A DNA stretch of 64,000 nucleotides. Source: Pteria penguin. Its lineage: Eukaryota > Mollusca > Bivalvia > Pterioida > Pteriidae. Of this stretch, positions 1 through 45,984 are shown one piece after another. Under the pieces are notes generated by a model. The model saw only the letters and a list, made by a program, of their open reading frames with translations, did no database searches and was not told the origin of the DNA. Made by a program: the position numbers and the translations under genes. The stretch's first letter is position 1. Each line of letters starts with the position of its first letter. The stretch lies in the NCBI GenBank assembly GCA_035048485.1, contig CM068587.1, forward strand, positions 52,815,501 through 52,879,500. The letters run 5' to 3'.

Positions 1-478
1 CAAATTTCCGTGCGAGGTATCTTTCTTGTTGTCCTTGTCAACAACAATGGCAGCGAAACGGTTTGGCAGTTTGCAAGCAGAGAGATGTTTTATATGTATT
101 ATGGTATAGTGTCTCTCAATGTAAATGTTCAGGTAATAAAAAAGAAATATAGAAATCTTAATATTGTGGAGTCAGCAAAGCAAAACGCCACATCGGGATC
201 ACTTTGTTCATTGTCCATCCGTCACACTTTGCTTTTGTCGTAGTATGGCCCATGGTATGGTGTTGTCTGTCTATGTATTAGCCTTATGCATGCTATCGTG
301 ATAGGTCATCGGTGGGGTAAATTCATTACCTAGTCATCTAGTGACCCGGTAGGGGATGATCCTGGGTCACTAGCTTTTATACCGTACTCATACCGTCGTA
401 AGTGTTTTATGTCAGATACTCTCCTAAATGGGAAGTAACTCTGTATAACGAAAAGACCAAATACAATACTGATGATAT
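1..478. repeat. Spacer of higher-order duplication, copy 1
   Basis: This non-minisatellite segment is nearly identical to 2961-3438, differing by scattered substitutions and small indels. Both copies lead into the same 42-bp minisatellite. Short open frames are present, but they match between copies only because the DNA is duplicated, and they show no protein signature. Confidence 0.85.
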
Positions 479-2850
479 CGGACTGTGATATGTATGTAGT
501 ATGTATATACATTGTACCATACTGATGATGTGGGACTGTGGTATGTACATGTATATACATTGTACCATACTGATGACATGGGGCTGTAATATGTATATAC
601 ATTGTACCATACTGATGATGTGGGGCTGTGATATGTATATACATTGTACCATACTGATGATGTGGGGCTGTGATATGTATATACATTGTACCGTACTGAT
701 GATGTGGGGCTGTGATATATATACATTGTACCATACTGATAATGTTGGGCTGTGATATGTATATACATTGTACCATACTGATGATGTGGGGCTGTTGTAT
801 GTATATACATTGTACCATACTGATGATGTGGGGCTGTGATATATATATACGTTGTACCATACTGATAATGTTGGGCTGTGATATGTATATACATTGTACC
901 ATACTGATGATGTGGGGCTGTGGTATGTATATACATTGTACCATACTGATGATGTGGGGCTGTGATATATATATACATTGTACTATACTGATGATGTGGG
1001 GCTGTGATATGTATATACATTGTACCATACTGATGATGTGGGGCTGTGATATGTATATACATTGTACCGTACTGATGATGTGGGGCTGTGATATATATAC
1101 ATTGTACCATACTGATAATGTTGGGCTGTGATATGTATATACATTGTACCATACTGATGATGTGGGGCTGTGGTATGTATATACATTGTACCATACTGAT
1201 GATGTGGGGCTGTGATATATATATACGTTGTACCATACTGATGATATGGGACTGTGATATGTATATACATTGTACCATACTGATGATGTGGGGCTGTGGT
1301 ATTATATACATTGTACCTAGTGATGATGTGGGGCTGTGATATATATATATATTGTACCATACTGATGATGTGGGACTGTGGTATGTATATACATTGTACC
1401 ATAGTGATGATGTGGGGCTGTGATATGTATATATACATTGTACCATACTGATGATGTGGGGCTGTGATATGTATATACATTGTACCATACTGATGATGTG
1501 GGGCTGTGGTATGTATATACATTGTACCATAGTGATGATTTGGGGCTGTGATATGTATATATACATTATACCATACTGATGATGTGGGACTGTGGTATGT
1601 ATATACATTGTACCATACTGATGATGTGGGGCTGTGGTATGTATATACATTGTACCATAGTGATGATGTGGGGCTGTGATATGTATATACATTGTACCAT
1701 ACTGATGATATGGGACTGTGGTATGTATATACATTGTACCATATTGATGATGTGGGACTGTGATATGTATATACATTGTACCATAGTGATGATGTGGGGC
1801 TGTGATATGTATATACATTGTACCATACTGATGATGTGGGACTGTTATATGTATATACATTGTACCATACTGATGATGTGGGGCTGTGATATGTATATAC
1901 ATTGTACCATAGTGATGACGTGGGGCTGTGATATGTATATACATTGTACCATACTGATGATGTCGGGCTGTGATATGTATATACATTGTACCATAGTGAT
2001 GATATGGGACTGTGATATGTATATACATTGTACCATACTGATGATGTGGGACTGTGATATGTATATACATTGTACCATACTGATGATGTGGGGCTGTGAT
2101 ATGTATATACATTGTACCATAGTGATGATGTGGGGCTGTGGTATGTATATACATTGTACCATACGGATGATGTGGGGCTGTGATATGTATATACATTGTA
2201 CCATACTGATGATGTGGGGCTGTGATATGTATATACATTGTACCATAGTGATGATATGGGACTGTGATATGTATATACATTGTACCATACTGATGATGTG
2301 GGGCTGTGATATGTATATACATTGTACCATACTGATAATGTGGGGCTGTGATATGTATATACATTGTACCATACTGATGATGTGGGACTGTGATACATTG
2401 TACCATACTGATGATGTGGGGCTGTGATATGTATATACATTGTACCATACTGATGATGTGGGACTGTGATATGTATATACATTGTACCATACTGATGATG
2501 TGGGGCTGTGATATGTATATACATTGTACCATACTGATGATGTGGGGCTGTGGTATGTATATATATTGTACCATACTGATGATTTGGGGCTGTGATATGT
2601 ATATACATTGTACCATACTGATGATGTGGGGCTGTGATATATATATACATTGTACCATACTGGTGATGTGGGGCTGTGGTATGTATATATATTGTACCAT
2701 ACTGATGATTTGGGGCTGTGATATGTATATACATTGTATCATACTGATGATGTGGGGCTGTGGTATGTATATACCTATACTGATGATGTGGGACTGTGAT
2801 ATGTATACACTGGGCATACTGATAATGTGGGGCTGTGGTATGTATTTACC
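479..2850. repeat. 42-bp minisatellite, array 1 (~56 units)
   Basis: Tandem units of 42 bp with occasional length variants contain the landmarks TTGTACCATACTGATGATG and GGGGCTGTGATATG, and most carry the palindrome TGTATATACA. Variation is mostly single substitutions such as ACTGATGATG/AGTGATGATG and GGGGCTG/GGGACTG, mixed along the array, which suggests unequal exchange or conversion. Because 42 is a multiple of 3 and the unit has few stops, several frames stay open for hundreds of codons. I treat those as artefacts of the unit length. Confidence 0.97.
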
Positions 2851-2960
2851 CCATGCGCACCTCTGACAAATTTGTTGGGGAATCCAGAAAAGCGATTGGC
2901 TCATAACGGTCATGTGAATACTTGGGCTATTCTTATCCGACGTTACCGTCAGATTTATAC
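2851..2960. other. Unique sequence between array 1 and spacer copy 2
   Basis: About 110 bp of non-repeated sequence follows the last degenerate unit of array 1. It has no counterpart within the window before position 1, so it may mark the junction of the duplication or belong to the repeating higher-order unit. Confidence 0.5.
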
Positions 2961-3438
2961 TAAATTTCCTTGCGAGGTATCTTGCTTGTTGTCCTTGTCA
3001 ACAACAATGACAGCGAAACAGTTTGGCAATTAAATGCAAGCAGGGAGATGTTTTATATGTATTATGGTATAGTGTCTCTCAATGTAAATGTTCAGGTAAT
3101 AAAAAAGAAATATAGAAATCTTAATATTGTGGAGTCAGAAAAGCAAAGCGCCACATCGGGATCACTTTGTTCATTGTCCATCCGTCACACTTTGCTTTTG
3201 TCGTAGTATGGCCCATGGTATGGTGTTGTCTGTCTATGTATTAGCCTTATGCATGCTATCATGATAGGTCATCGGTGGGGTAAATTCATTACCTAGTCAT
3301 CTAGTGACCCGGTAGGGGATGATCCTGGGTCACTAGCTTTTATACCGTACTCATAATACCGTCATAAGTGTTTTATGTCAGATACTGTCCTAAATGGGAA
3401 GTAACTCTGTATAACGAAAAGACCAAATACAATACTGA
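2961..3438. repeat. Spacer of higher-order duplication, copy 2
   Basis: Aligns with 1-478 over its whole length, for example the shared stretch GATCCTGGGTCACTAGC. It shows that the larger unit, spacer plus minisatellite (about 2.9 kb), is itself tandemly duplicated. Confidence 0.85.
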
Positions 3439-5155
3439 TGATATCGGACTGTGATATGTATATACATTGTACTATACTGATGATGTGGGACTGTGGTATG
3501 TATATACATTGTACCATACTGATGATGTGGGACTGTGGTATGTATATACATTGTACCATACTGATGATGTGGGACTGTGGTATGTATATACATTGTACCA
3601 TACTGATGATGTGGGACTGTGGTATGTATATACATTGTACCATACTCATGATATGGGACTGTGATATAAATATACATTGTACCATACTGATGATGTGGGA
3701 CTGTGATATGTATATACATTGTACGATACTGATAATGTTGGGCTGTGATATATATATACATTGTACCATACTGATGATGTGGGACTGCGGTATGTATATA
3801 CATTGTACCATACTGATGATGTGGGGCTGTGGTATGTATATACATTGTACCATACTGATGATGTGGGGCTGTGGTATTTATATACATTGTACCATACTGA
3901 TGATGTGGGGCTGTGATATGTATATACATTGTACCATACTGATGATGTGGAGCTGTGGTTACGTATATACATTGTACCATACTGATGATGTGGGGCTGTG
4001 GATGTATATACATTGTACCATACTGATGATGTGGGGCTGTGGATGTATATACATTGTACTATACTGATGATATGGGACTGTGATATATATATATACATTG
4101 TACCATACTGATGATGTGGGACTGTGATATGTATATACATTGTACCATACTGATGATGTGGGGCTGTGATATGTATATACATTGTACCATACTGATGATG
4201 TGGAGCTGTGGTATGTATATACATTGTACCATACTGATGATGTGGGGCTCAGGATGTATATACATTGTACTATACTGATGATATGGGACTGTGATATGTA
4301 CATACATTGTACCATACTGATGATGTGCGGCTGTGATATATATATATACATTGTACCATACTGATGATGTGGGACTGTGGTATGTATATACATTGAACTA
4401 TACTGATGATGTGGGGCTGTGATATGTATATATACATTGTACCATACTGATGATGTGGGGCTGTGATATGTATATATACATTGTACCATACTGATGATGT
4501 GGGGCTGTGATATATATATACATTGTACCATACTGATGATGTGGGGCTGTGGTATGTATATACATTGTACCATAGTGATGATGTGGGGCTGCGATATGTA
4601 TATATACATTGTACCATACTGAGGATGTGGGGCTGTGATATGTATATACATTGTACCATACTGATGATGTGGGGCTGTGGTATGTATATACATTGTACCA
4701 TACTGATGATGTGGGGCTGTGATATATATATATACATTGTACCATACTGATGATGTGGGACTGTGATATATATATATACATTGTACCATACTGGTGATGT
4801 GGGACTGTGATATGTATATACATTGTACCATACTGATGATGTGGGGCTGTGGTATGTATATACAATGTACCATACTGATGATGTGGAGCTGTGGTATGTA
4901 AATACATTGTACCATACTGATGATGTGGGGCTGTGATATATATATATACATTGTACCATACTGGTGATGTGGGACTGTGATATGTATATACATTGTACCA
5001 TACTGATGATGTGGGGCTGTGGTATGTATATACAATGTACCATACCCATAATGATGACGTGGGGCTGTGATACATATACTTATATATACCCATTCTGATG
5101 ACAAGGGGCTGTGATTTGCACATATTCCTGAATATACCCATTCTGATTATGTGGG
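3439..5155. repeat. 42-bp minisatellite, array 2 (~39 units)
   Basis: Same 42-bp unit as array 1. The first units are enriched in the GGGACTGTGG variant. Many later units are 44-46 bp through extra TA steps (ATATATATATACA). The last units, from about 5040 on, are degenerate and fade into unique sequence. Confidence 0.95.
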
Positions 5156-6693
5156 ACCGTTATATGTTTTTAACAGTAGTGGCATTCGTCGTGTGTGCAG
5201 CGGTAAAATGTGCTGGCATCATCAGCATATTTTTGACAGTCATTTTAGAGATGGCTGGGCAAACAGGAGTAATTCACTCTTCCTAAGACACATTTAAAAC
5301 TCTCATGCCTAATTTCTAAAGGTTCTGAGTGAGCGTCATGGATTGTTGTGAGCATAACAGAAACATAGTACTAATTACAGTGGCAGTTAAGTGGCTATGT
5401 TGGAAAAAGATGAGAGGCACAACTTTCTACTCTCAATAAAAATGAAGTCAAAAGTACAAAAAAAAAAAAAAATTGCAACAACTCTCAATGCTTCTTGGCA
5501 ATTTTCTTTTACTACTAGTTTACTTCTATGTAAATTCTGTAAAAATGTTCCATGCATGTCCCTTTCATATTCTATGATATATTTTCAATTAAGAAAGGGG
5601 ATCATATTTGTAAGATCTGAGCAAAGGTGCACATTATTTCTGATAAAAGATAATACATTAAGATTCTTATACAAAATTTAATGACTAAATCAATGTTCCA
5701 TTAAATACAACAGTACTTTACAGTTTACACTTAAGTTTATCCATCATGCTTACAAAATCAATGACTATATTTTTGTATATTATTAAATAATTTTAACACA
5801 GAACTGTGTTGTGAAGCATATGTCCAGTGAGTGAGTGACAAATTGATACATTTTGAGAATTTTAAATCAGAACCTACATTAAGTTGAAGAAACCATTCAT
5901 TAACATGGTCAAAAGCCTAAAGATACAGAAAACTTTTCACATTCATACAAAATATTCCTGTACATAATATTTTCACCCAAGAGGTAAAGCCTGTCTTCCA
6001 AAAAACATACCCTTAAAAATCTGTTCTACACTGTTTAAAATTTAACTTATTCAAAGAACACTTAATTTCGATTAAAACACAGGTATCATAGTGAAGTATA
6101 CAATATGTAAACTACATCTACTTAACAAGGTCAAGAATATTGGGTTACAACAAACATGCATATAAAGCTTCTTTCAGTGTACTTAATTATAAACAATGTT
6201 TTTGCAAATGTCACACTTTCTGTTATCTACTCTTTAAATATCAAAAAGTTGAGGAGAATTTAAGATACATAAACAATGTTAATCATTAAAGAAAATTTTC
6301 CAATATTTAACAGAAATTAAGTGACTCTTCCAATCTGTTCTTTCATCTTTAGAATTTTCTGTTAAAAATCTATTTGAAATTCAAGATCCCAATGTACATA
6401 GTCCTATTTCTTTAATGATTTCTAAAATCATAAAATGATTCTTTTAAATCCATGATTTCTTTTTCTCAAAACTAGAAATCCATATAAATCTAGTGCATTA
6501 GTTGTATATGGGATGGCGTTCGTATGACACATTATTTCATTCGACTTCATCCAGATAGTTGAAAAGATTTTCCCAAATTATTGTTTCCAAATTCCTACAC
6601 TTAATTTCATTGGTCTATTTCAATATATGTAAATGTTAAAACCGCTTTAATGCCTTTATAGTTATACAGTTATATACAATCCACACAATTCAA
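5156..6693. other. AT-rich stretch, probable 3' UTR/flank of the minus-strand gene
   Basis: No coding exon is recognisable. It holds a poly(A) run at about 5458-5473 and many short AT-rich segments. The part next to 6694 lies 3' of the minus-strand gene and may include its 3' UTR. No poly(A) site can be assigned. Confidence 0.4.
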
Positions 6694-9220: not shown

Positions 9221-9222
9221 AT

Positions 9223-9335
9223 GTGGCAGACTGGGACATCGGCTTAGATAGCTCAGTTGGTAGAGCATCCGCCTTGTTAGCGGAAGGTCCTGGGTTCGAG
9301 TCCCGGTCTGGCCAATGATTTTTCAACCTTCCTGC
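9223..9335 (+). repeat. tRNA-derived SINE-like repeat, copy 1 (Thr-UGU-like head)
   Basis: Positions 9242-9313 fold as a tRNA: D arm GCTC/GAGC, anticodon stem TCCGC/GCGGA with loop CTTGTTA (anticodon UGU, Thr), and T arm CTGGG/CCCGG. The internal promoter A box (TAGCTCAGTTGG) and B box (GGTTCGAGTCC) are intact. The acceptor stem GCTTAGA/TCTGGCC has one mismatch and two wobbles. The shared flanks (GTGGCAGACTGGGACATCGG before, AATGATTTTTCAACCTTCCT after) recur in copy 2, so this is a repeat unit and not a lone tRNA gene. Confidence 0.7.
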
Positions 9336-9442: not shown

Positions 9443-9560
9443 GTGTGGCAGACTGGGACATCGGCCCAGATAGCTCAGTTGGTAGAGCCTCCGACTTGTT
9501 AGCGGAAGGTCTGGGTTCGAGTTCCGGTCTGGCCAATGATTTTTCAACCTTCCTGCTACA
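9443..9560 (+). repeat. tRNA-derived SINE-like repeat, copy 2
   Basis: Second copy of the unit at 9223-9335, about 220 bp downstream. Its tRNA-like part (9464-9534) has a better acceptor stem (GCCCAGA/TCTGGCC) but has lost a base before the T arm, has an A-G mismatch in the anticodon stem, and carries a B-box change. It is a decayed or rearranged sister copy. Confidence 0.7.
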
Positions 9561-10265
9561 AATATATTATTCATCATTAACACAAGCATAGTCTTAACCA
9601 TAGTTAGCATAAGTCATCCAAGGTCAAATGGCCTGACTTTCAAATTGAAAATAATTGAGAAAATTGAAAATTTAATGTTAAGTTTTTAAAATGTTTTGAA
9701 TGAGAAATAAATTAGGAATCTCCTAGCTTTCTAACACTGTGTCATTGCTCCTCAGATGGTGCTCCATTTGGACTGAAAATATCATTTAATACGTATCTTT
9801 AATCGCAGCTTGAATACATATAGGCATGCTTTTAACAAGTGTTCTGCATCTCCTGGCAGGCAAATTGTCCCAGCATACTGTAATGCCAGCCAGTTTTACT
9901 AGTTCATTTATGTAATAATTCTATGTATTAACATTTCAATTTATCTGTCATTGATGATATTTTACTATATGTCTTATTGACACTTAGAATGATATGATCA
10001 TACCAAATGTTTATTATATTAGCTCGAATTTACTCGACCGGTAATGGATCAATCTACGCATATTCGGGACATGTCATCTCAAGAGTACGACCAAGTTTAA
10101 ATATTTGTGACTTACTTTAATTATTATCATCATGTTACTGCTTGACGAATTCTTTTATAAGCCTTAATCTTATATTTTATCGACTCGTAAGACATATCGA
10201 CATAAGCACCGCTAGTTAATCAGCCAACTCGTAGGAAAACTATTTCGATCTTCTTGGATGCGTTG

Positions 10266-10299
10266 TGACGTCATTTGCCTATCGTCATAAGTGACGTCA
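10266..10299 (+). promoter_or_regulatory. Two perfect CRE sites (TGACGTCA) in the LTR
   Basis: TGACGTCA occurs at 10266-10273 and again at 10292-10299, just upstream of the TATA box. This is the consensus for CREB/ATF-type bZIP factors. The pair is repeated in the 3' LTR at 18539-18546 and 18565-18572. Confidence 0.75.
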
Positions 10300-10306
10300 C
10301 ACTGGG

Positions 10307-10314
10307 TATATAAG
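10307..10314 (+). promoter_or_regulatory. LTR TATA box
   Basis: TATATAAG lies 8 bp after the second CRE site, with a likely initiation region some 30 bp downstream (around ATGATCAGTGT). This sets the U3/R boundary near 10340. The same box is at 18580-18587 in the 3' LTR. Confidence 0.75.
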
Positions 10315-10922
10315 ACCGCGGATGTTCATTTTATGATCAGTGTCTACTGTAACACTCAAGTGAACTGCAACACACCTTTAGAGACTACAGAATCTCTAGA
10401 AAACCATCAACTTTGATGCCCATTGCAGTTATGGACAAAGATATCATGGTATGAATTATTTGACAATTTGTCAATTAAAATAAGTTCCATAAATCCATGA
10501 ATTCCAAATGTCCTTGAATTTTACTCACAGTGGTCAAATGCATTATAGTATATAAATAACTTATATATATTAGGCTAAGTGTCTGATAGGAGTCTTCATT
10601 TGTCTCAGTTATAAAACAGCTAGGAAAAACTGACATTGACAGTTTGACAAAATTTGCCGATATTTGACGATCCATCACTGGTCAATCTCTAATAGATATT
10701 TTCATGAATTGTTCAGTAATTCAGTAAATGAGTAGATCTAATGTATGTCAATTGGTATGACAAAATAAAACTTTACAAGTAATAACAAATGCCTCTGTGA
10801 TTCATTGGTAATGTATAAGAAGTGTGACCTCAAGCCAATTCCAGACGATCCCCAGTAATGAGATCCCTACTTCATAAAAATATAACTTCCGCTCGGTTAC
10901 ATTGAGGATCGGCATTACAATT

Positions 10923-10940
10923 TGGTGGCAGCGGTGGGAT
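10923..10940 (+). other. Primer-binding site, tRNA-Leu
   Basis: TGGTGGCAGCGGTGGGAT starts 3 nt after the LTR. It is complementary to the 3' end of animal tRNA-Leu (UAG/AAG type, ending ATCCCACCGCTGCCA plus CCA). The tRNA sequence is recalled knowledge; the 18-nt match is complete. Confidence 0.85.
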
Positions 10941-11232: not shown

Positions 11233-12291
11233 ATGGATGATTCTAATGTTGTCACCATTAGGAAACCTGAAACAAATGAAGACATAGAAACAAATGATAT
11301 AAGTGATCAAGAATCAGTGTCAGATATGAATATTAATCAAGGACAAGAATTACAAATAATACAAGATCAAATTCTGAATATGAATAATGAAATAGGATCA
11401 GTCACATCTGAAATTAAAAACACTTTGGTAGAATTTAAACAACAAATGTTAGAAATGCAAAGTGAAATAAATACTTTGAATAAAAGAAGTAGAAGTCCAT
11501 CCCCACCTCATAGGTCTAGAAACATTAATCAAAACGAGGGGCAACATGTAAGATATAGTACACCAATTAGAATAGGAGATGCAATGGACATAAGACCCCA
11601 ATCATCAAAAATAAAAACACAGACCTATGACGGGAACGAAGACTTGGAGGACTACTTAGCTCAGTATGATATTATAGCTGAGATTAATGGATGGAATTAT
11701 GAAACTAAGTCTCTGTATTTAGCAAGCAGCTTAACAGGGCCAGCAAGAGCTCTTTTAAATGAACTTGATGACAGAAAAAGAAGAGATTACGACAGTCTAG
11801 TAGAATCTCTCAATACTAGATTTGGTAGTGTAAACAAAGCTGAAGTTTATAGGTCAAAATTACAAAGTCGTGTCAAAAGCATGAATGAGTCAATTCCAGA
11901 ATTAGCTCAAAGTATAAGAAAATTGACACGTAAAGCCTATCCAAGTGCAACATCTGAAGTCATAGACATTCTTGCAATTGACTATTTCATAGATGCTCTC
12001 AGTGACTCTGACATCAGACTCAGACTAAGAGAAGTAGGACCTAAGACTATTGGAGAAGCTGAAAAGATAGCTGTGAGACTTGAAGCTCACAGAATTGCTG
12101 ACAAAAGCAGGAATAAAGCCTCCATAGATCATCTCAGAAATAGTGACTCAGGTGACAATGATCTGCAACAAATAAAAAAAGAGGTGGCAAGACTTTTGCA
12201 TGAGGTGAACAGTATGAAACAAAGTGAATCAAAGTCAGGATTTGACAGAAATAGTCAAATTCAGTCAAATGATAATCAAGGCAAAAAGTGA
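11233..12291 (+). CDS. gag: Gag polyprotein (352 residues), truncated before its basic tail
   Basis: I chose the first ATG, at 11233 (MDDSNVV); upstream codons in frame lack ATG. The N-terminal third has an acidic and coiled-coil-like stretch (EIGSVTSEIKN) and an SRSPSPPHRSR segment. Residues of roughly 120-290 resemble a Ty3/Gypsy capsid (QTYDGNEDLEDYLAQYD, then ASSLTGPARALL). The frame stops at TGA 12289-12291, right after the run GGCAAAAAG. The expected nucleic-acid-binding region continues at once in the +1 frame (12292-12502: Asn/Arg/Gly-rich, no CCHC knuckle). This looks like a one-base length change in the A run, or a site of recoding. Pol returns to the gag frame. Confidence 0.85.
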   Translation: MDDSNVVTIRKPETNEDIETNDISDQESVSDMNINQGQELQIIQDQILNMNNEIGSVTSEIKNTLVEFKQQMLEMQSEINTLNKRSRSPSPPHRSRNINQNEGQHVRYSTPIRIGDAMDIRPQSSKIKTQTYDGNEDLEDYLAQYDIIAEINGWNYETKSLYLASSLTGPARALLNELDDRKRRDYDSLVESLNTRFGSVNKAEVYRSKLQSRVKSMNESIPELAQSIRKLTRKAYPSATSEVIDILAIDYFIDALSDSDIRLRLREVGPKTIGEAEKIAVRLEAHRIADKSRNKASIDHLRNSDSGDNDLQQIKKEVARLLHEVNSMKQSESKSGFDRNSQIQSNDNQGKK

Positions 12292-12502
12292 GAATAATCT
12301 CTCATCCCAAAATAACCACGGACAGGGACAAAATTCTTTTCGACCTGGGAACAATAACAGAAATAAAAATAGGTGGAGAGGAAACCGGAGATACTCTTCT
12401 GATAATCAAGGAAATCAAAATAACCGTGAATCAAACAGGGAAGTGTCGAATTTAAGGGGCGAAGTTCGACAACAATTCCAAAGTCCCACACAGGAACAGT
12501 AA
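12292..12502 (+). CDS. Out-of-frame basic tail of Gag (nucleocapsid-like)
   Basis: This frame is +1 relative to gag and runs to TAA at 12500-12502. It is rich in Asn, Gly, Arg and Gln (RNKNRWRGNRRY), as in RNA-binding tails that replace zinc knuckles in some Gypsy elements. It overlaps the open pol frame from 12430 on, the usual arrangement for a -1 shift into pol. No start codon is plausible, so it is expressed only by fusion to Gag, if at all. Confidence 0.6.
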
Positions 12503-15500
12503 ATGTCAGAACCACTAAGGGAAAAACTGAGGGATTCTATCTGTCTACATTAGTAGAGGGTGTGTCAGTATCCATGTTAATTGACACAGGCTCAAGTGTC
12601 ACTATTTTGAGAAAGGACATGTTTGATAAATTAAGCATGAGTAACCCTCAGAATCTCCCTATATTTCCTGTCAATATGAAGTTTAAGACTGCTACTAATG
12701 AAATTGCATGTTTTAAAGGGAAGACAACTCTCAAGTTTCAAATTGGTAAACAGAAAATGAATCAAGAATTTTTATTAGCTGATATTCAAGATGATGGAAT
12801 AATTGGTAGAGATTTTATTTTACAACATGGCATTGATGTTTTGACAACTAAGAAATGTTTGTCATTCAATGGAGAATATATTCCTTTTGATAAACACAAT
12901 GATGAAGAATTCCTATGTTGTAAAGTGGCTGTATCACAAAAAATTGTGATACCTGCAGAGACTGAAATGGTTGTTCCAGGAAAATTGATAGGACAATTTG
13001 ATCACATAAACAGTATGTGTTTTATAGAAGCAAATCCTGAGTTTGTAGAAAAAAGTGGTTTATTATTGGGAAAAGTATTAGTCAATAGTGAACAGACAAA
13101 AATTCCTTTAAGAGTGGCTAATTTTAGCAAAGAACCTTATACTTTGTACCCTAACACTATTGTTGCAAGTGCTGAAAAGGCAGAGATTGTGAATACCTTA
13201 AGTAGTGGTTGTGAGCCTAAGTCTTGGCATAATAGTCATGAAAATGAGATACCAGGACCTTTAAAAGAACTTATTCTACAAGAACATGACCACCTTACTG
13301 AAGAACAAAAATGGAAATTGAAAAATCTTATTTTATCTCATACAGACTTATTTTCAATGTCAGAAGATGACATAGGCCATACAACTATAGTAGAACATAC
13401 TATTAATACAGGAAACTCCAAGCCTGTAAAGTTACCCCCATATAGAATTCCTCTCTCAAAGCGTATTGCTGCAGAGAATGAAATTAAAAACATGGCCTCA
13501 AGAGGAGTAATAGAACCATCCTCTGGACCTTGGAGTAGCCCTATTATTATGGTTACAAAACCCAACGGATCTATTAGATTCTGTTGTGACTATAGAAAAC
13601 TAAACGATATAACCCAAAAAGACAGTCAACCTTTACCAAGGATTGACGATACATTAGACGCACTGTCAGGATCCAAATGGTTTAGTACCTTGGACCTGAA
13701 GTCGGGGTTCTGGCAAGTAGGAGTGGCTAAGGACGATAGACCCAAGACAGCATTCTCTATCCAAGGTAGTGGTCTCTGGCAATTCAAGGTCATGCCCTTT
13801 GGCTTATGTAATAGTCCTGCAACCTTTGAGAGACTAATGGAAAAAATATTAACAAAGTTAACTTGGAAAAAATGTCTTGTCTACCTTGACGACATAATAG
13901 TGTTTTCAAAAACATTTGACGAGCAAATTGAAAATCTAAATGAGGTGTTTCAACGATTAAAAGAAGCAAATCTCAAGGTCAATCCAGAGAAATGTTCTCT
14001 ATTACAAAAAGAGGTTTCATTTTTAGGTCATGTAATATGTGAAAATGGTGTACACACAGATGAGAAAAAGGTCAAGGATGTCATTAATTGGCCTACACCA
14101 CGAAATGTGAGAGATGTACGCAGTTTTCTTGGTTTATGTTCATATTATAGGAAGTTTGTAGAGAATTTCTCTACTATTGCTAAACCATTACATAAACTGA
14201 CAGAAAAGAAAGTAGAGTTTGTATGGAATGATTCCTGTCAGAATGCATTTCAAAAACTAAAAGTAGCCTTATCAAAAGCTCCTATCTTAGCATACCCTAA
14301 GGACAATGGAACCTTTATTTTAGACACAGATGCCAGTAATGTTGGCATGGGTGCAGTTCTGTCTCAAATTCAAAATGAGCAAGAGAAAGTAATATGTTAT
14401 TTCAGCAAGTGCTTTTCCAAGTCAGAGCGTCAGTACTGTGTTACTAGACGAGAACTTCTGGCAGTGGTTTCGGCAGTAAAACAATTTCATCATTACTTAT
14501 ATGGTAGACACTTCCTAGTCAGAAGTGACCATGGAGCTCTAAGATGGCTCTTTAATTTTAAAAGACCAGAGGGACAGATGGCAAGATGGCTTGAACTTCT
14601 AGCCACTTACGATTTCAAAATTGAACACAGAGCAGGCAGAATACATAATAATGCAGATAGTTTATCAAGGCGACCATGTGTGGCAAGTCATTGTAAATAC
14701 TGCGATCGTGTAGAAAGAAAGCATGAGAATTCAGATAAACCAGAGGAGGATAAAATTGTTACAAAAGAGGTTGGAAATTCCTGTGTTGTAATGACAGGCA
14801 CCTCTAGTACATATTCTTATCCTGATAATAAAAGCAGCAACTCTTTAAGTGATAAAGAGGCTCCAATTTGTGTTCCAGATGCCACGTGTAAAAAGGAAGT
14901 TGGGTACGATAATTGTTCAACAATTAGCACTTCTAATACAATAAGCACTGTGGGAACTGAGAGTTTTCCTAGTGAAGTATGTGCTGGCACTTCTAGTATG
15001 TTAAATGCAGATGTGCATAATACAAAAACTACTAACACAAAGGTCACAAGTGATGGACATGATGTCCTAATACTAAGGTCTGGAAAAATGAGAAGTATTG
15101 ACAATATTAGTCACTTAGGAGAAATGAATATGGAATTCTTGCAACGTTTGCAGAGAGATGACAAAGTTATATCAGACTTAATTTGCTTTGTACAAAATGC
15201 CAAGAAGCCAACATGGACTGAAGTAGCACACAAGCCTGTAGAGTTTAAATTCTACTGGAATAGGTTTGATTCCTTGATAATAGAAAATAACATCTTATGT
15301 CATAAACTAGAGAGTGTAAATTCAGAGAAATATTGTTTACAAATCATTCTGCCACATGAATTAAGAAATGTTGTGTTGAAAGAACTGCATAATGCACCCA
15401 CAGGAGGTCATCTAGGTGTCAAGAAGACCATCAACAAAGTCAAACACAGATTTTATTGGTACGGACTTTCACGAGATGTTGAGAGATGGTGTAAAACATG

Positions 15501-16428
15501 TGAAATATGTGCATCTAGAAAAATGCCCCTTAGAAAACCAAAGTCAGAGATGAAAATGTATAATGTTGGTGCACCGCTCGAAAGAGTTGCATTAGATATA
15601 ATGGGACCATTACCTAAGACTAAGGAAGAAAACAAATACATTCTTGTTATTTGTGATTACTTTACCAAGTGGTTGGTAGCAGTACCAGTTAAAAATGTAG
15701 ATGCAACTACAATAGCTAAAAGTTTTGTTCAGTATTTTGTTACTCTGTATGGGGTACCAATGGAGATTCACAGTGACCAAGGTACTTGTTTTGAGTCTGA
15801 AATATTTCAAGAGATGTGTAGAATTTTAGGTTCACATAAGACAAGAACAACAACTATGAGACCACAATCAGATGGACTTGTAGAGAGAGCAAATCGTACA
15901 CTCCAAAATATGTTGTCAAATTATGTGTCAAATAATCAAGATGATTGGGATATTTATCTATCTGTGCTTACCATGGCTTATAATTCCTCTGTGCATGAGA
16001 GTACTGGTATGTCACCAAGCGTCATGATGTATGGAAGAGAGATGACTTTGCCCATTGATCTTGTTTTTGGACGACCTCTGACTTCAAACATAGATTCACA
16101 GATGGACAGTACAATCTTTGCATGTGATTTAGCTGACAAAATACAACAAATACATGAAATAGCTAGGAAACGTATGACATTTGCTAGTGGTGTCCAGAAA
16201 AGAAACTATGATCATAAAATATCACAACATATCTATAATGTTGGAGATAAAGTATGGTACTATAATCCAATATGTAAAAAGGGAAAAAGCAAAAAGCTGG
16301 ACAGACCCTGGAAGGGACCTTATGTTGTTCTTAAAAGAATAAATGATATCATATATAAAATACAGCTGAATTCAAAAGCTAAACCCAGAATTGTACATCA
16401 TGATAAACTTAAAATTTATTACTTATAG
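12430..16428 (+). CDS. pol: Pol polyprotein: protease, RT, RNase H, integrase
   Basis: Pol is open from 12430, with no ATG before 12574, so expression as a Gag-Pol frameshift fusion is expected. Aspartic protease: LIDTGSS at about 12577. Reverse transcriptase: LDLKSGFWQV, then the catalytic box YLDDIIVF at about 13882. RNase H: DTDASNVGMGAVLSQ at about 14323. Integrase: HHCC zinc site (H-N-A-P-T-G-G-H then C-x2-C, about 15388-15515) and the DDE triad (D in ALDIMGPLP, SDQG, and E in QSDGLVERANRTL). A GPY/F module (WKGPYVVL) ends the protein. There are no internal stops over about 1,330 codons, and all catalytic residues I looked for are present, so the copy may be competent apart from the gag break. 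Confidence 0.95.
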   Translation: MKQGSVEFKGRSSTTIPKSHTGTVNVRTTKGKTEGFYLSTLVEGVSVSMLIDTGSSVTILRKDMFDKLSMSNPQNLPIFPVNMKFKTATNEIACFKGKTTLKFQIGKQKMNQEFLLADIQDDGIIGRDFILQHGIDVLTTKKCLSFNGEYIPFDKHNDEEFLCCKVAVSQKIVIPAETEMVVPGKLIGQFDHINSMCFIEANPEFVEKSGLLLGKVLVNSEQTKIPLRVANFSKEPYTLYPNTIVASAEKAEIVNTLSSGCEPKSWHNSHENEIPGPLKELILQEHDHLTEEQKWKLKNLILSHTDLFSMSEDDIGHTTIVEHTINTGNSKPVKLPPYRIPLSKRIAAENEIKNMASRGVIEPSSGPWSSPIIMVTKPNGSIRFCCDYRKLNDITQKDSQPLPRIDDTLDALSGSKWFSTLDLKSGFWQVGVAKDDRPKTAFSIQGSGLWQFKVMPFGLCNSPATFERLMEKILTKLTWKKCLVYLDDIIVFSKTFDEQIENLNEVFQRLKEANLKVNPEKCSLLQKEVSFLGHVICENGVHTDEKKVKDVINWPTPRNVRDVRSFLGLCSYYRKFVENFSTIAKPLHKLTEKKVEFVWNDSCQNAFQKLKVALSKAPILAYPKDNGTFILDTDASNVGMGAVLSQIQNEQEKVICYFSKCFSKSERQYCVTRRELLAVVSAVKQFHHYLYGRHFLVRSDHGALRWLFNFKRPEGQMARWLELLATYDFKIEHRAGRIHNNADSLSRRPCVASHCKYCDRVERKHENSDKPEEDKIVTKEVGNSCVVMTGTSSTYSYPDNKSSNSLSDKEAPICVPDATCKKEVGYDNCSTISTSNTISTVGTESFPSEVCAGTSSMLNADVHNTKTTNTKVTSDGHDVLILRSGKMRSIDNISHLGEMNMEFLQRLQRDDKVISDLICFVQNAKKPTWTEVAHKPVEFKFYWNRFDSLIIENNILCHKLESVNSEKYCLQIILPHELRNVVLKELHNAPTGGHLGVKKTINKVKHRFYWYGLSRDVERWCKTCEICASRKMPLRKPKSEMKMYNVGAPLERVALDIMGPLPKTKEENKYILVICDYFTKWLVAVPVKNVDATTIAKSFVQYFVTLYGVPMEIHSDQGTCFESEIFQEMCRILGSHKTRTTTMRPQSDGLVERANRTLQNMLSNYVSNNQDDWDIYLSVLTMAYNSSVHESTGMSPSVMMYGREMTLPIDLVFGRPLTSNIDSQMDSTIFACDLADKIQQIHEIARKRMTFASGVQKRNYDHKISQHIYNVGDKVWYYNPICKKGKSKKLDRPWKGPYVVLKRINDIIYKIQLNSKAKPRIVHHDKLKIYYL

Positions 16429-16511
16429 AAAACTTTGCCTGAACATTGGATTCAGTAAAGTGCAACTTGTCTTTGAGATATTTTACTTACACTTTCAACT
16501 TACAAGCAGGA

Positions 16512-17807
16512 ATGAAATCAAAAAGAAACGATGGAAAAGTTTCCTTTTCTATATTACAGAATACTTATAGCTGTAAAATATGTCAGACACAGTACAAGGA
16601 CAAATATGGTGGAATACGCCATGTACAGGAATTTCACTCCCACTTCACCCACATATGTTCTCGATGCACGAGAACCTTTTCCAGGCGTAATTATAGGCAT
16701 GGATGCAGGGACCTTAAAGTAGAGGACTGGGTAATTGTGGCACCTGACGGAACTAGAGGGGAAAGAGCCAAACAAATGTTTAGTAGATGGAAAAGAGAAG
16801 AACAAATGACATATCTAGTACAGTCAACAAATTCTGAGAGGGTTACCAAAAGACGAAGTGAGGAACATTTAGACAAAGAAAATAAGAAGAGAAGAAGATC
16901 AATATCACCATCCAAAAGAACTAAGGACCAATTGGCCATCGTTAACACAATCACCAGAGATACCACTCTCCTAAGCACCAGTCCTCCAATTACACCAATT
17001 AAAGATAGAAGGGTAGTGGAAAAGGCAGCTTCACTGTCAGATATTAGTGAAATTGAGCTGGATGCTAACTCCCCTGCAAAACAAAGAGAACATAGGAGAT
17101 TAAGAACACCAAAGTCGAAGGAGTACATTACTGACACAGATACAGACACTGAAACAGAACAACCAAACCACACAAGCACAGTGACCTCAGAAACCATAGC
17201 GTTATATGAAGAACCAATCACAGATACCACTACCTGCATCATCACCTCAACTACCTCCTCGGACACCACATCAACCACCTCCACGACCACAACACCCACC
17301 AATCCGACATCCAACACACCCATCAATACAGCTAAATATACCTTGAATGAAACAGGACCACTTATGACACCATCAAGAAATTACCTTTTGGGGATACCCA
17401 TCAAGACTCCAACTTTGGAAGAATTACAACAAAGTCAGGATAGTAAAATCATATTAAATGTTGGAGGAACACGATTTCAAGCCTCAAAATCAAGCCTCAT
17501 GGCAGATAAGAGTTGTATTCTGGCTCAGATGCTAAAAGAAGAGAGTCCATTCCAACCGACTCAATCTAATGATGTTCCGGTATACTTCATCGATAGAGAA
17601 TCAGCACATTTTAGATTCGTATTAAATTACCTCAGAAACAAATGCATGGTCGACCTGGAAACTCTCCCAAGGGATCAGAGGTACTTGCATGAAATTCTAG
17701 CCGAAGCCAGGTTTTACAACTGTAAAGGATTGGAAATGCAAGTGTTGAGGAAAATCCATCAGGTGATGTATAGCTGGTCATATGGATATGTGCCTACCTA
17801 CAATTAA
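16512..17807 (+). CDS. ORF3: zinc-finger plus KCTD-like BTB/T1 protein (431 residues)
   Basis: Third gene of the retrotransposon, 83 bp after pol. The start is the first ATG (MKSKRND). Residues 21-42 form a C2H2 finger (C21, C24, H37, H42), followed by a second C-x2-C-x10-H-x-C unit (C49, C52, H63, C65). A basic segment at about 125-138 (KKRRRSISPSKR) looks like a nuclear localisation signal. Residues of roughly 190-300 are acidic, then Thr-rich low complexity. Residues of about 311-415 match the T1/BTB fold of KCTD and Kv proteins (ILNVGGTRFQ, then YFIDRESAHFRFVLNYLR and LAEARFYNCKGL). There is no signal peptide or membrane segment, so it is not an envelope. A pyrimidine-rich stretch ending AACTTACAAGCAG just before the ATG could be a splice acceptor for a subgenomic mRNA. 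The domain calls are solid; the role is unknown. Confidence 0.85.
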   Translation: MKSKRNDGKVSFSILQNTYSCKICQTQYKDKYGGIRHVQEFHSHFTHICSRCTRTFSRRNYRHGCRDLKVEDWVIVAPDGTRGERAKQMFSRWKREEQMTYLVQSTNSERVTKRRSEEHLDKENKKRRRSISPSKRTKDQLAIVNTITRDTTLLSTSPPITPIKDRRVVEKAASLSDISEIELDANSPAKQREHRRLRTPKSKEYITDTDTDTETEQPNHTSTVTSETIALYEEPITDTTTCIITSTTSSDTTSTTSTTTTPTNPTSNTPINTAKYTLNETGPLMTPSRNYLLGIPIKTPTLEELQQSQDSKIILNVGGTRFQASKSSLMADKSCILAQMLKEESPFQPTQSNDVPVYFIDRESAHFRFVLNYLRNKCMVDLETLPRDQRYLHEILAEARFYNCKGLEMQVLRKIHQVMYSWSYGYVPTYN

Positions 17808-18139: not shown

Positions 18140-18151
18140 AGTAGGGGGCTA
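18140..18151 (+). other. Polypurine-tract candidate next to 3' LTR
   Basis: AGTAGGGGG followed by CTA abuts the 3' LTR start at 18152, where plus-strand priming would be expected. It is short, with a T interrupting the purines, so the assignment rests mainly on position. Confidence 0.45.
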
Positions 18152-19192
18152 TGTAATGCCAGCCAGTTTTACTAGTTCATTTATGTAATAATTCTATGTA
18201 TTAACATTTCAATTTATCTGTCATTGATGATATTTTACTATATGTCTTATTGACACTTAGAATGATATGATCATACCAAATGTTTATTATATTAGCTCGA
18301 ATTTACTCGACCGGTAATGGATCAATTTACGCATATTCGGGACATGTCATCTCAAGAGTACGACCAAGTTTAAATATTTGTGACTTACTTTAATTATTAT
18401 CATCATGTTACTGCTTGACGAATTCTTTTATAAGCCTTAATCTTATATTTTATCGACTCGTAAGACATATCGACATAAGCACCGCTAGTTAATCAGCCAA
18501 CTCGTAGGAAAACTATTTCGATCTTCTTGGATGCGTTGTGACGTCATTTGCCTATCGTCATAAGTGACGTCACACTGGGTATATAAGACCGCGGATGTTC
18601 ATTTTATGATCAGTGTCTACTGTAACACTCAAGTGAACTGCAACACACCTTTAGAGACTACAGAATCTCTAGAAAACCATCAACTTTGATGCCCATTGCA
18701 GTTATGGACAAAGATATCATGGTATGAATTATTTGACAATTTGTCAATTAAAATAAGTTCCATAAATCCATGAATTCCAAATGTCCTTGAATTTTACTCA
18801 CAGTGGTCAAATGCATTATAGTATATAAATAACTTATATATATTAGGCTAAGTGTCTGATAGGAGTCTTCATTTGTCTCAGTTATAAAACAGCTAGGAAA
18901 AACTGACATTGACAGTTTGACAAAATTTGCCGATATTTGACGATCCATCACTGGTCAATCTCTAATAGATATTTTCATGAATTGTTCAGTAATTCAGTAA
19001 ATGAGTAGATCTAATGTATGTCAATTGGTATGACAAAATAAAACTTTACAAGTAATAACAAATGCCTCTGTGATTCATTGGTAATGTATAAGAAGTGTGA
19101 CCTCAAGCCAATTCCAGACGATCCCCAGTAATGAGATCCCTACTTCATAAAAATATAACTTCCACTCGGTTACATTGAGGATCGGCATTACA
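18152..19192 (+). repeat. 3' LTR (1041 bp)
   Basis: Same length and termini as the 5' LTR, with only two substitutions seen. Its promoter (two CRE sites and TATA at 18580) points toward Pellino, whose first coding exon starts 460 bp after the LTR end. Confidence 0.95.
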
Positions 19193-19196
19193 ATAC

Positions 19197-37440: not shown

Positions 37441-38766
37441 GTGATCTGTAATAGGTCCTGTACGCATCCTCCTAAATCGCAGTTTATCAAGATTAAATTT
37501 GTAAATAAAGGTTTAGATCTGCTTAATATTTCTAATGTTTTTCGTGATCATAGAGTCAAATCTAAAATTCCTCAGTATTTCAAGAATTTTGAATCACCCT
37601 TAATTTGCTGTCAGTACAGAAAACCTATTAGAAACCTTATATTTAATTACAAAGCAGTCACATCTAATCTTAATTCTCTTGACTCTATTCCATCATCCTT
37701 TTCGTGCAAAAATATCAACCTGCGGACCATATTATTACAGGTGATCTTAACTGTATTTCGGACAAATATCTAATTTCACATTTTAATAAAGGGCCAAAGT
37801 ATAGATTACCTTCCAGGATAGATTTTACCAAATGCTGGGATATTGTTGAAATTCATTACATACTTCTTGTAAACGGTTGTGTAAAAAGACGGTGTAAAGA
37901 TACATACCTTGAATGACTGGAAAAGTGAAATCTTAAAAATTATCAATATTCGAATTAATAATTTTACAAGTAATCCCCATTTTTCAAACAGCCACATTAT
38001 ATACCAGTCCAGTCTATAAAAAAAGAAAATGGCTGATTTACATAAATCTTATGTCTTCGTACAAAAGCAGCTAATAATATCATTGTTTGAAACATATACT
38101 ATATTACAGTTCTCAAAACTGAATTGAACTCTACTTAAATGTATGTTGAAACCCCATGGTTTAAAGACAAGATCCTATCTGACCATTGTGAAGCTTTGAG
38201 TGACTTCAGTTTAGGCATTAATAATGACGATCTTCCAACAATGTATTGGCTTCCAAATTACACAAAAATCCATATAAATCACGTTTAATATCAAATTACA
38301 GTCGTTGCTCTACAACTGTGCTTTCTAAACATATTACCTCCGCTCTTACTGTAGTTAAAGTCCATGTTATCAAGCATTGTAATGTTGTTTTTATCAATAG
38401 TAACGTCAATTACTTTTGGTCTATCAAAATTCTAAAGAAGTCATGGTAAACTTACTACTTCAATTTATGGCAAACATGATGACTTTTAGTTTCCCCATTA
38501 CTTACTTTCCATATAGCAACATTCCTTTATCACCTGCGTACGGTGTTTATGTATCCCAATTGATTCGATATGCGCGAGCGTCATCTGAGTATTGCGCTTT
38601 CATTTATCGAAGCCAATTACTAGGAGAAAAAATACTCAAACAAGGATATGAGATATCACATCTTATGTCAAAATTCCGCAAATTTTACAGTCGTTATAAG
38701 GACCTTATTTGCTCATATGACGTATCGTTGTCTGACATGTTGACTTCCTTATTTCACAGTAACTAA
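37441..38766 (+). pseudogene. Penelope-like reverse transcriptase pseudogene, core deleted
   Basis: N-terminal frames give FVNKGLDLLNISNVFRDHRV and PLICCQYRKPIRNLIFNYKA, then KGPKYRLPSRIDFTKCWD in a shifted frame. After several frameshifts come KLHKNPYKSRLISNYSRCST and FWSIKI. The sequence then jumps to the C-terminal region (YGVYVSQLIRYARASSEYC, then LMSKFRKFYSRYKDLI) and a stop at 38764-38766. The catalytic PMG/YVDD part is missing between about 38440 and 38460. I assign it to Penelope-like elements from the order and motifs seen in the other copies in this window; the exact clade is uncertain. Confidence 0.75.
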
Positions 38767-42563: not shown

Positions 42564-42949
42564 TTACCCAATCTTGTAACCTGTGAACGTAGAATACTCT
42601 GCCTGTATATCATTACAAGTTACATGAGGAATAATCCCAACGATATCCGCGGGCTCCAAGCTCAATATCACGCTTTGACTACCTGACATATTGTCGTCTG
42701 CGTATGTGGCACTAACGAAATTTGATGACCGTATTTCCTTGTTTACGACAATCTTAGATGGACATGATTTCCTATATTTGGTCACTATTGTCCATTGAAA
42801 AAGATAGGTGCCTCTGGACGGAGGATAGAATAGACCCGTGGCATTATCATAGGCGGAGTCGCTGGCAAAAAGAGTTTTCTGGAAGGTGATGTGGTCGTAA
42901 ACGGTCGATAGCTTAGCTTCTGTGGCACTGAAAGCTATAACAGTTTCAG
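42564..42949 (-). CDS. C1q-domain exon
   Basis: Acceptor TTCTTTTACAG. About 128 codons hold one whole C1q globular domain, and the exon ends with TAA at 42564-42566. The domain has two or more cysteines (KSCPSK and VTCND) that may form a disulfide. Confidence 0.9.
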
Positions 42950-44122
42950 CTGTAAAAGAAAGAAGGAAATAATACCTATGGTGGATAAACGGAAAATAGA
43001 AAAATAACAGATTCTATGTCATTGTCACATTGAATGTACTTAACACGACGATTTATACTGAGCTAGCAAACAATATTAGCTGACACCTTTTCCTCTGGTC
43101 ACCCAATCACACTCCCTTTATGGAGTTCACAGATGCCCCTAAAGTAGTTACTCTTTCTTTTTTTACTTGGATTTATTTTACGCTGATTTTGCATGCCCCT
43201 TGTTTTCATTATTATTATTGCACACTCAAAACAATGTTAAACGGTCAGACCAGGTTCCCGATCGGAACAAAAATCCTCTGTTTGACTGACTACTATAGGC
43301 GCCCCAAAATGCCCAAATAATACAGACATCACAAAAATTCAGCATTGAACATAAGCTATGAATAATGACTTGCATTGTATAAAAGTGTTAAATTTAGTAC
43401 ACCTTATGCATATACGCATTTTGACAACGTGTTTAATTTCACATAAAATTTATTCACGTATATATGTTCTGGTATTTATTTAATCATGTTGAATAAGTAC
43501 AAGTAAAAGTATACCAAGCAGAGAGGATGCAGACAGGATGGGAAATGATTTTCATCATAGTGCCTTCGCCCCGCCACTTAAAACAAATCAAGAACCAGTA
43601 GATGAAAATTTATTTACCTGCGCTTTTGTGATCAAAAACATCTTCTTGAAAAGTATCTATAACAGTTCTCAAATTCTTCATTTTATTTTGAAAAGGGAGT
43701 GTTTGTTGCGCGATATCATTAGTAATGTTTTCTAAGTTTTCTTTAATTTCTCCAAAGTACGAACTTATTATAGTTTTTGAATCATTCCACATAGCAAGCA
43801 TTTCATTCATCACATCTTGTCTGCGTTGTGCACGAAGCAATTCTATCTTCCGCTGTATTTCATCCATGTAAATATAAACTGAATAATTCAGATTACTAAT
43901 AATTTGTGGAAAACCATCTTGGTTTAGTCCATTATTTTCAACGAAGTCATTCAATTCGTGCTCTAGTGCTTTCCGATGATTAATTTCCTTAATGACCAGT
44001 TGACGAAGTATGGACATTTCTTGCTGTACGTCACATTTACTGGAACACAATCCTTGCGAGGCAGTGCTCCCAGTGAGGAGATACACAGTAAGCAGGAGAA
44101 AAAGAAAGGCATGTAGGCTCAT
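42564..44122 (-). CDS. C1q-domain-containing secreted protein, 2 exons, 296 residues
   Basis: Exon 1 is 43618-44122 and exon 2 is 42564-42949; the splice is phase 1 (GCAG|GTAAAT ... TTTTACAG|CTGAAACT). Exon 1 starts at ATG 44122 (MSLHAFLFLL), a clear signal peptide. It then encodes a Cys pair (LCSSKCDVQ) and a heptad-like helical stalk of about 130 residues with N-glycosylation sites such as NYS and NIT. Exon 2 encodes a C1q globular domain: TVIAFSATEAK at the start, then NATGLFYPPSRGTYLFQW and a C-terminal TFTGYKIG. In bivalves such proteins (C1qDC) are secreted lectin-like recognition molecules in a greatly expanded family. The ligand cannot be predicted. A possible alternative first exon lies at 45294-45807. 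Confidence 0.88.
43618..44122 (-). CDS. C1q gene exon 1: signal peptide and coiled-coil stalk
   Basis: 168 codons plus 1 base from ATG 44122. The donor GCAG|GTAAAT is followed in the intron by an in-frame TAA, which supports splicing there. Confidence 0.88.
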
Positions 44123-44164
44123 AGTGCTCACTTTGTTATCATAACTCGCTACCGTGCGAAACAA

Positions 44165-45293
44165 TGTCTAAATGGAGCACATATCTAATTGGGTAATAGA
44201 CTGCGACAATGTAGTGGTAAATTGAATCCATAAATTGAGCAATTACTTTCAAATTTATTCCTGTTTTCGACAACCTTGGCATTTAGGACCGAATGTACAT
44301 CGATTAAATGTGTTTTATGGTGATGAATAAAAAGTTTATCTATGCAAAATGGTTTATTTATCCGAACCGCAAAATATCTTTATTTTGTGGAGAAAAGGGA
44401 GGGGAAAGGGCATGACTTAACCACACTGGTCATCGGGCAGTCTTTTCCATACCTGTTTTGTGGATATAAGACACAGTGAAAATTTTATGAATTTGTATGC
44501 CCTTATAAGTCGGTATACAAACGCCATAAGGAGAGAGCATATGGGACTTAATTTCCCTATTTTGCAGTGTTCATTTTCTGTTTTATGAGGGTCAAATGGT
44601 TATGGTATCCATGTGGTCGCTTATTTATATACTGCATGTTCTGACTATGACAGATAAATCAAAGGGGCATAAAATTCAGCATAACATAAGTTAGACGTCC
44701 ATATGTAGATTTCATATCAGAAATCAGCGTTGGGCATTCCTAAAAATTTAATGTATTCTATTTATTACACGAAATCGATTAAGATGTAAAGTAAAACTAT
44801 GAATCATTATTATTAATGTAAGGAACGTAACGTATTCAACCTGAAACATGATGATTCCATTTACGAAGGTTTGCTCACTAACAGAGAAGGTATGGATTCA
44901 GGAGATAGGTAAAACAAAAATAAAGAATGCCAGAGATAAAGTCATATTAAAGAAAAGAAGAAAGAAGAAACTCGCCAAGGAATTGTAAATAATGAAAAGT
45001 TGGCACACACATAGAAATCACAAAAATAGTCAAATGTAATGTAGTTATGGTTCTGACTTACAATTACCGGTCAGCTGAAATGGCAATTGTCACACACTGC
45101 CTTTGTAACAGAACGTAGACCCGTTGTGTTTTTATTTATGTGGAATTAATCTCTTTGGAACCATACTTGTTATCACATTCAATATTTTGGGCATTATTTT
45201 ATATCTGAATTAGGCACTCCATGTGTATATAATGGATGCATAATGAAAACACAAAAACTTAGATATATATGATACGCATGTATGCAAATTTAC
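44165..45293. other. Sequence between the two paralogous first exons
   Basis: No C1q exon can be found here on the minus strand. The sequence upstream of both first exons shares an ATCTAATTGGGTAATAG-like motif (44186 and 45876 regions), so promoter DNA was duplicated with the exon. Confidence 0.5.
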
Positions 45294-45807
45294 CTGCTGA
45301 TCTGTAATCATAAAACCATTTTTGAATGGCCTCAATATATTCTCCCAAGTTGTTGATTTTCCTTTGAAATGTATCTTTTTGCTTTGCAGAAATGTTAGTG
45401 ATATTTTCGAACTTTGCTTCAATTTCTTCCTGATACAAAAACAGATCACTCCCCGAATCCTTATATTTGACATCAATTTCATTTATCAGATCTTTTCTAA
45501 AAAGCGAATTGTTTTTGTTCATCTCCTGCTTCATTTCATCCATTTGTATAGAGAATGTCTGGTTCAGTTTTCTAACACTTTCCGCATTTTCCATCTGTTT
45601 TAGTTTGTTACTAGCTACGTATTGTTTTAAATCATTCAATTGTTGTTCCATCGCTATCCGTATCATGGTTTCCTGGTTGATCATCTGGCGAAGAGTGGAG
45701 ATTTCTTGTAGGACATCACATTGGTTTGGACAAGTCTCCGGTGATATGGTGCTCCCAATATTGGCATACGTAAAAGGTATGACAAAGAGAAAGGTGTACA
45801 GGTTCAT
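45294..45807 (-). CDS. Paralogous first exon of a C1q-type gene (signal peptide plus coiled coil)
   Basis: ATG 45807 begins a signal peptide (MNLYTFLFVIPFTYAN), followed by CPNQCDVLQEISTLRQMINQ and a charged helical stalk ending YRSAG. It matches exon 1 of the C1q gene in plan: a Cys-x3-Cys-D-V start, NIT sites, and DTFQ-like and SAG endings. It also ends with the same phase 1 donor (GCAG|GTAAAT). No C1q exon of its own lies between it and the next first exon. It may be an alternative first exon that splices to 42949, or an orphan from a partial duplication. It is intact, with no stops or frameshifts. Confidence 0.75.
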
Positions 45808-45984
45808 GATACTTATTGTTCTATCTTTACCCTATGCTATCTGAGAGGGACGTGTTGAGTCAGTAGAATGATGTCCATATGTCTAATTGGGCAATAACAG
45901 ATGGTAATTTTGTGTAAATTACATTTCAGAATCAGACTATTAGTTCGTATTGTTTTTCATGTTCACATGAACTCGAATAAAAGA

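Follow-up and report, generated by a model that had tools for sequence, protein, structure and literature searches.

The window analysed here is a 64,000-nucleotide stretch of the Pteria penguin genome (contig CM068587.1, positions 52,815,501 to 52,879,500), and it contains a young long terminal repeat (LTR) retrotransposon, assigned to Ty3/gypsy by its TG..CA LTR ends, its target-site duplication and the pol order protease, reverse transcriptase (RT), RNase H and integrase (Table 1). Inside the LTRs, after an open pol, lies a third open reading frame (ORF), ORF3, as the initial annotation of this DNA had described, and its product joins an N-terminal pair of zinc-finger units to a C-terminal T1/BTB domain of the KCTD type.

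The T1/BTB assignment, also made in the initial annotation, was upheld by the BTB_2 profile (59 bits, cut-off 21.4) and by structure prediction with fold matches, which gave a T1 fold. By identity, the nearest KCTD folds were KCTD13, KCTD10, KCTD5 and KCTD17 (28–31%), with KCTD1, KCTD15 and KCTD16 at 18–26%. The PF00651 kind of BTB, N-terminal in ZBTB proteins, was not reached (16.6 bits, cut-off 20.5). KCTD family proteins carry the BTB domain N-terminally, according to passages of PMC10856315, and ORF3 was not filed as a KCTD protein because its domain is C-terminal, at residues 311–424 of 431. The C2H2 finger and the C-C-H-C unit noted earlier were both found, with ligands within residues 21–42 (C21-x2-C24-x12-H37-x4-H42, a C2H2 spacing) and 49–65; the curated zf-C2H2 profile was not reached by the ORF3 finger (11.6 bits, cut-off 25.2). 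Among the matches listed, none in the PDB fell on the finger part, which does not by itself point to a new fold. A long helix at residues 84–130 in the first model was absent when the region was refolded with one relative, and was left unused because it did not recur. ORF3 has a net charge of +13 and no hydrophobic segment. Searching a large protein collection with ORF3 gave 8 matches, each covering 21–27% of it and corresponding to the BTB part; residues 1–140 had no match in that collection, no NCBIfam match was obtained, and scans of viral contigs with ORF3 and with a pol alignment returned no relatives.

Table 1. Features of the element and of ORF3 (window positions)
Feature	Position	Strand	Remarks
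Target-site duplication ATAC, 4 bp	left 9875..9878, right 19193-19196		flanks CCCAGCATAC / ATACTATCAG
5' LTR	9879..10919	+	1041 bp; ends TGTAAT...ATTACA; 2 differences from 3' LTR
Primer binding site TGGTGGCAGCGGTGGGA	10923..10939	+	read from sequence
gag-like ORF	11233..12291	+	aligns with gag of L001
pol frame, open	12430..16428	+	first GTG 12562; protease, RT, RNase H, integrase
ORF3 from first ATG	16512..17807	+	431 codons; stop-to-stop frame starts 16443
Predicted 3' splice site AG|A	16558..16560	+	exon from 16560; score 5.9, best of 16300-16700
C2H2 finger, residues 21-42	16572..16637	+	4/4 ligands kept in L001; region matched in L010, L011, L014
C2HC unit, residues 49-65	16656..16706	+	C49, C52, H63 kept in L001; matched in L030
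Basic stretch resembling a nuclear localisation signal, KRR...KKRRR...SPSKR	16848..16925	+	sequence
Thr/Ser-rich linker, predicted disordered	16962..17429	+	composition; predicted local distance difference test (pLDDT) under 50 in residues 150-296
T1/BTB domain, KCTD type, residues 311-424	17442..17783	+	profile and predicted fold
Polypurine-tract-like AGTAGGGGGCTA	18140..18151	+	directly before 3' LTR
3' LTR	18152..19192	+	1041 bp; TG..CA ends

The putative primer binding site appears complementary to the 3' end of a tRNA-Leu. No Pfam gag match was found for the gag-like protein; its homologue in L001, a related element described below, matched Retrotrans_gag below the cut-off (E 0.0005). Full-length relatives of pol, among the best 120 of 5050 matches in the large protein collection, were at most 56% identical, those named including Ruditapes, Pinctada, Patella and Mercenaria. 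GC content at third codon positions was 0.385 in ORF3 against 0.250 in gag and 0.276 in pol, and likewise 0.354 against 0.258 and 0.258 in L001.

ORF3 copies, subfamilies and a relative from another host

The P. penguin genome (838 Mb, 49 contigs) was searched with ORF3, giving 59 matching stretches, of which 8, the window copy included, were full-length and open at 99–100% identity, with 0–6 nucleotide differences from the window copy; some other copies were broken. Variable codons among the eight comprised 6 nonsynonymous and 6 synonymous ones where 3.38:1 was expected (one-sided P 0.036), a selection test based on 12 codons only. From 3994 candidate pol loci a small part, 36, was scored, and an ORF3 match within 6 kb downstream was found in 14, namely all those with a main-match pol identity of 50–100%; the remaining 22, with pol identities of 40–49%, had none.

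That ORF3 always follows pol, a point raised in the initial annotation, stood for 15 of 20 fetched ORF3/BTB regions, where gag or pol lay before the match in the same orientation, and did not stand for five (L013, L017, L019, L023, L026). L013 and L023 are probably element remnants, because L013 is a close sister of element copy L018 (BTB tree support 96/100) and L023 has much of the linker and BTB start of L010; L017, L019 and L026 look, by sequence, like host KCTD-type genes. Of six divergent loci examined for LTR-like repeats, only L015 had them, with direct repeats on both sides at a distance of 8046 bp.

Divergent subfamilies were recovered in the same genome. L010 has an open 462-codon ORF3 with fingers 37% and BTB 35% identical to those of the window, and eight more small regions included five of a second subfamily (L030, L032, L033, L034, L036), with L030 at 38% in the BTB (E=7e-17) and E=6e-5 in the second finger. 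In L038 and L039, sequence like an integrase C-terminus precedes ORF3 (1.6e-20 and 3.0e-15). Of the remaining small regions, L031 resembles a voltage-gated potassium channel, and L035 a KCTD-type gene of the host. Element-subfamily BTBs were mostly 31–41% identical to the window BTB, with short pieces up to 54%.

Three arrangements were seen among the copies. L008 and L009 (G000 C5:42399518-42412948) are tandem element copies whose ORF3-to-ORF3 distance of 8191 bp is near the element's LTR-to-LTR spacing of 8273, as if the middle LTR were shared; L033 (G000 C10:15730700-15732300) has an integrase-like fragment in frame with the ORF3 linker, apparently through an internal deletion (judged by eye); and the broken copy L028 (1838-2632, minus strand) has the BTB part of ORF3 in two to three tandem pieces.

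A relative from another host, L001, is a 6.5-kb contig in a Bathymodiolus brooksi gill symbiont assembly; it is probably host-mussel DNA, because it carries a Ty3/gypsy element, whose pol is 46% (best segment) and RT 60% identical to the window. Its post-pol ORF encodes the finger pair and an acidic linker and ends with FNIGG at a run of G, and another frame continues to the contig end. The resulting 33-residue tail had BTB_2 as its sole Pfam match (positions 7-32, in register, E 0.21, below cut-off), and it aligned with four of eight BTB proteins at z 5.2–6.2, with the remaining four at 1.5–2.6 and with the window BTB at 3.1; WD40 matches of this tail in the PDB were taken as spurious. The L001 finger region was 44% identical to L030 (9e-17) and 30% to the window (8e-5). 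With eight open copies, divergent subfamilies and L001, ORF3 is not confined to one copy, the case in which the initial annotation would have called it a chance capture; such a capture was rejected since ORF3 recurs in own-genome copies and related elements. Its retention in divergent relatives makes ORF3 look like a functional component of the element, not an accident.

Sister elements, trees and splicing

Eight of the 22 elements lacking an ORF3 match (L040-L045, L056, L057) were examined over 2.5–2.8 kb downstream of pol. A loose finger pattern occurred in a post-pol ORF of all eight, and a strict C2H2 pattern in seven of these ORFs, where 0 to 7 of 1000 shuffles per element matched it. A Pfam zinc-finger match below E 0.01 was obtained in five (L042, L043, L045, L056, L057), above the curated cut-off in three of these (L042, L045, L056), and six BTB queries against the eight downstream regions gave no match at E 1. 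Since BTB-less sisters have post-pol ORFs with zinc-finger motifs, it is the fingers that related elements seem to share in ORF3, and the BTB that seems to vary. In an RT tree of 20 rows, which included broken, long-branched divergent copies and omitted L018 (piece too short), the 12 BTB carriers fell on one side of a single branch, requiring 1 change against a shuffled mean of 6.5 (0/500 as low). The trees are unrooted, and we think gain of the BTB in one lineage likelier than its loss in others.

The suggestion that ORF3 is a captured host gene was thus narrowed: any capture would probably be old, because the element-subfamily BTBs are far apart, and ORF3 is not simply one captured zinc-finger/BTB host gene, since BTB-less sisters have finger motifs. 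On the five host-type BTBs fetched from this genome (L017, L019, L026, L031, L035), recent capture of a host KCTD was rejected, their identity over the matched part being 32–38%.

Splice sites were ranked by a simple score. The predicted acceptor at 16560 lies between codons, with four codons separating it from the first cysteine of the finger (N17-T18-Y19-S20-C21), and the corresponding acceptor ranked first in L001 (5474), L010 (6978), L011 (7532) and L014 (6866), first but weak in L039 (667), and fourth in L038. No in-frame ATG was found upstream of finger 1 in L001 and L010. Because the acceptor recurs in relatives and these two lack such an ATG, ORF3 is probably the 3' exon of a spliced mRNA, in which case the ATG at 16512 would be intronic; the start codon taken there in the initial annotation is probably wrong.

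Proposed role of ORF3 and competing explanations

We give about an even chance to ORF3 being a true third gene in a lineage of Ty3/gypsy elements, encoding a spliced nuclear finger protein that is multimerised by its BTB domain and acts in the nuclear phase of the element. The splicing, nuclear location, nucleic-acid binding, oligomer state and role that we infer would run as follows. A spliced mRNA would probably yield ORF3; the N-terminal finger pair and basic stretch would serve nuclear entry and the binding of nucleic acid or of a chromatin protein; and the C-terminal KCTD-type T1/BTB would collect several ORF3 copies into a multivalent particle, KCTDs being mostly pentameric. Its site of action would most likely be the element's own transcript or LTR, or chromatin at integration, with the finger pair as the core of a wider related set and the BTB as an addition to, or retained extra of, one sublineage.

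Several observations weigh against this reading. The finger region folded alone had a mean pLDDT of 46, a low confidence, and the selection test is small, as given above. Among the sisters, L044 has the loose finger pattern only, a pattern also present in 81 of 1000 shuffles, the near-copies L040 and L041 have no Pfam match, and homology of the sister fingers to those of ORF3 is something we infer from motif and position only. Support for the BTB group in the RT tree was weak (50/74; 52% of 200 bootstrap trees). A BTB tree comprised 26 rows, 13 of them labelled as element rows; these needed 3 changes, not 1, against 9.1 in shuffles, so that they cluster, with one origin or several possible. 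The tree left out L023, L014, L016, L024, L027, L028 and L029, and L013 and L037 were labelled as element rows without pol evidence. For splicing, the acceptor scans in L010, L011 and L014 were narrow (114–151 bases), the L001 acceptor score of 1.6 is not rare, L016 and L024 showed no clear acceptor at the corresponding place, and no donor was identified, the best gag-frame candidate (11548) having no convincing match in L001.

Other explanations share parts of this evidence. ORF3 could be a CUL3 adaptor whose BTB recruits CUL3 and whose fingers select a restriction or silencing factor of the host to be ubiquitylated, as a counter-defence; we regard this as possible but doubtful. The four KCTDs closest to ORF3 by identity are among direct CUL3 binders, and the three more distant ones are validated non-binders, in passages of PMC10856315; ORF3 F401 also appears, by alignment offset, aligned with KCTD5 F128, listed as a contact residue in a KCTD5 cryo-EM structure, partner unspecified (PMC11084553, in part). 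The loop that makes most KCTD–CUL3 contacts varies from one KCTD to another (same passages of PMC10856315), so CUL3 binding is undecidable from sequence alone. A stronger form, which we consider rather unlikely, has the BTB-bearing sublineage turning an env-position zinc-finger protein into a KCTD-like multimeric adaptor that recruits CUL3 against silencing or restricting host factors; if true, this would be a retrotransposon-borne ubiquitin ligase adaptor. Quite improbable, in our judgement, is a spliced Gag-ORF3 fusion, in which fingers and BTB would follow the first 105 or so residues of Gag, the product entering particles to condense or escort the genome. The donor-like site at 11548 is phase-compatible in the gag frame, and the acceptor upstream of the fingers and the missing ATG in L001 and L010 would suit such a fusion; however, donor scores of 7 or more arise about twice per kb by chance, so that the value of 7.1 is common, and the L001 candidate is weak and slightly shifted.

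The location after pol and the likely spliced mRNA would also fit an envelope-like entry protein in the env position, errantivirus env genes being expressed from there by a spliced mRNA. This was rejected as scarcely credible, since a hydropathy scan gave no membrane-spanning segment (the top 19-residue value was 0.52 for ORF3, and ten related ORF3s did not exceed 1.20, against a usual membrane threshold of about 1.6), and finger and BTB domains are present. That ORF3 is a functionless passenger, a host gene fragment captured once, would account for the broken copies, but eight full-length open copies, its retention in divergent subfamilies and L001, and the ratio of synonymous to nonsynonymous codons against neutrality make it very unlikely.

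Comparable systems and surrounding sequence

Added ORF3s in LTR elements are already known (PMC5408684; PMC9289625). Bdelloid rotifer LTR retrotransposons have acquired, lineage-specific ORF3s, which like that of the window are non-envelope frames downstream of pol with acquired domains (GDSL, DEDDy); unlike there, where the text available describes no zinc-finger/BTB protein, an interaction module is here fused to fingers (PMC5408684). An orchid Ty3/Gypsy element with an ORF for an AlkB N6-methyladenosine (m6A) demethylase is alike in adding a cellular-type ORF to gypsy and differs in the domain, no BTB being among those named of 15 extra domains in a plant screen (PMC9289625, in part). Searches of the open PMC literature brought up, among the titles and abstract openings listed, no LTR element carrying a BTB or KCTD domain, Repbase and subscription journals lying outside the search, and 'btb' and 'orf3' are absent from the main text, as available, of a mollusc LTR survey (PMC6238403).

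The fold and LNVGG...NYLR signature of the ORF3 domain are those of KCTD T1/BTB domains (KCTD13, KCTD10, KCTD5, KCTD17 and others), from which ORF3 differs in its C-terminal BTB, in an identity of about 30% and in the fingers in front. ZBTB transcription factors combine BTB and C2H2 fingers in one protein; ORF3 has them in the opposite order, with a BTB of the BTB_2/KCTD kind. Giant-virus BTB proteins (Pandoravirus, Clandestinovirus and others) are a viral use of KCTD-like BTBs, in large DNA viruses and an unrelated genome context. A KCTD-type BTB extends the list of cellular modules acquired by LTR elements, and whether a retrotransposon may bring along a nuclear adaptor of its own can be tested on this element, for which relatives with and without the BTB, present together in a single genome, form a natural comparison. 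Third genes of LTR elements are often named env by position; in these related elements the third gene encodes zinc fingers, and the zinc-finger-motif post-pol ORF of the BTB-less sister gypsy elements is worth its own survey.

Elsewhere in the window, ORFs at 38404-38763 (+), 51603-52223 (-) and 56637-57179 (-) share a motif like SQ(L/I).R.AR; they have no Pfam match below 0.01, and L013 contains an 830-codon RT-like frame whose end they resemble. Short tandem repeats in long arrays at 330-5160 give long open frames (ISMVQCIYI...) that are probably spurious. Immediately upstream of the element lie two 68-bp copies (9222-9289 and 9444-9511, 94%) that resemble a tRNA-derived repeat. On the minus strand, 43610-44167 and 45259-45831 are secreted coiled-coil-like ORFs, and an ORF at 42567-43013 has a C1q domain (Pfam E 4.5e-14).
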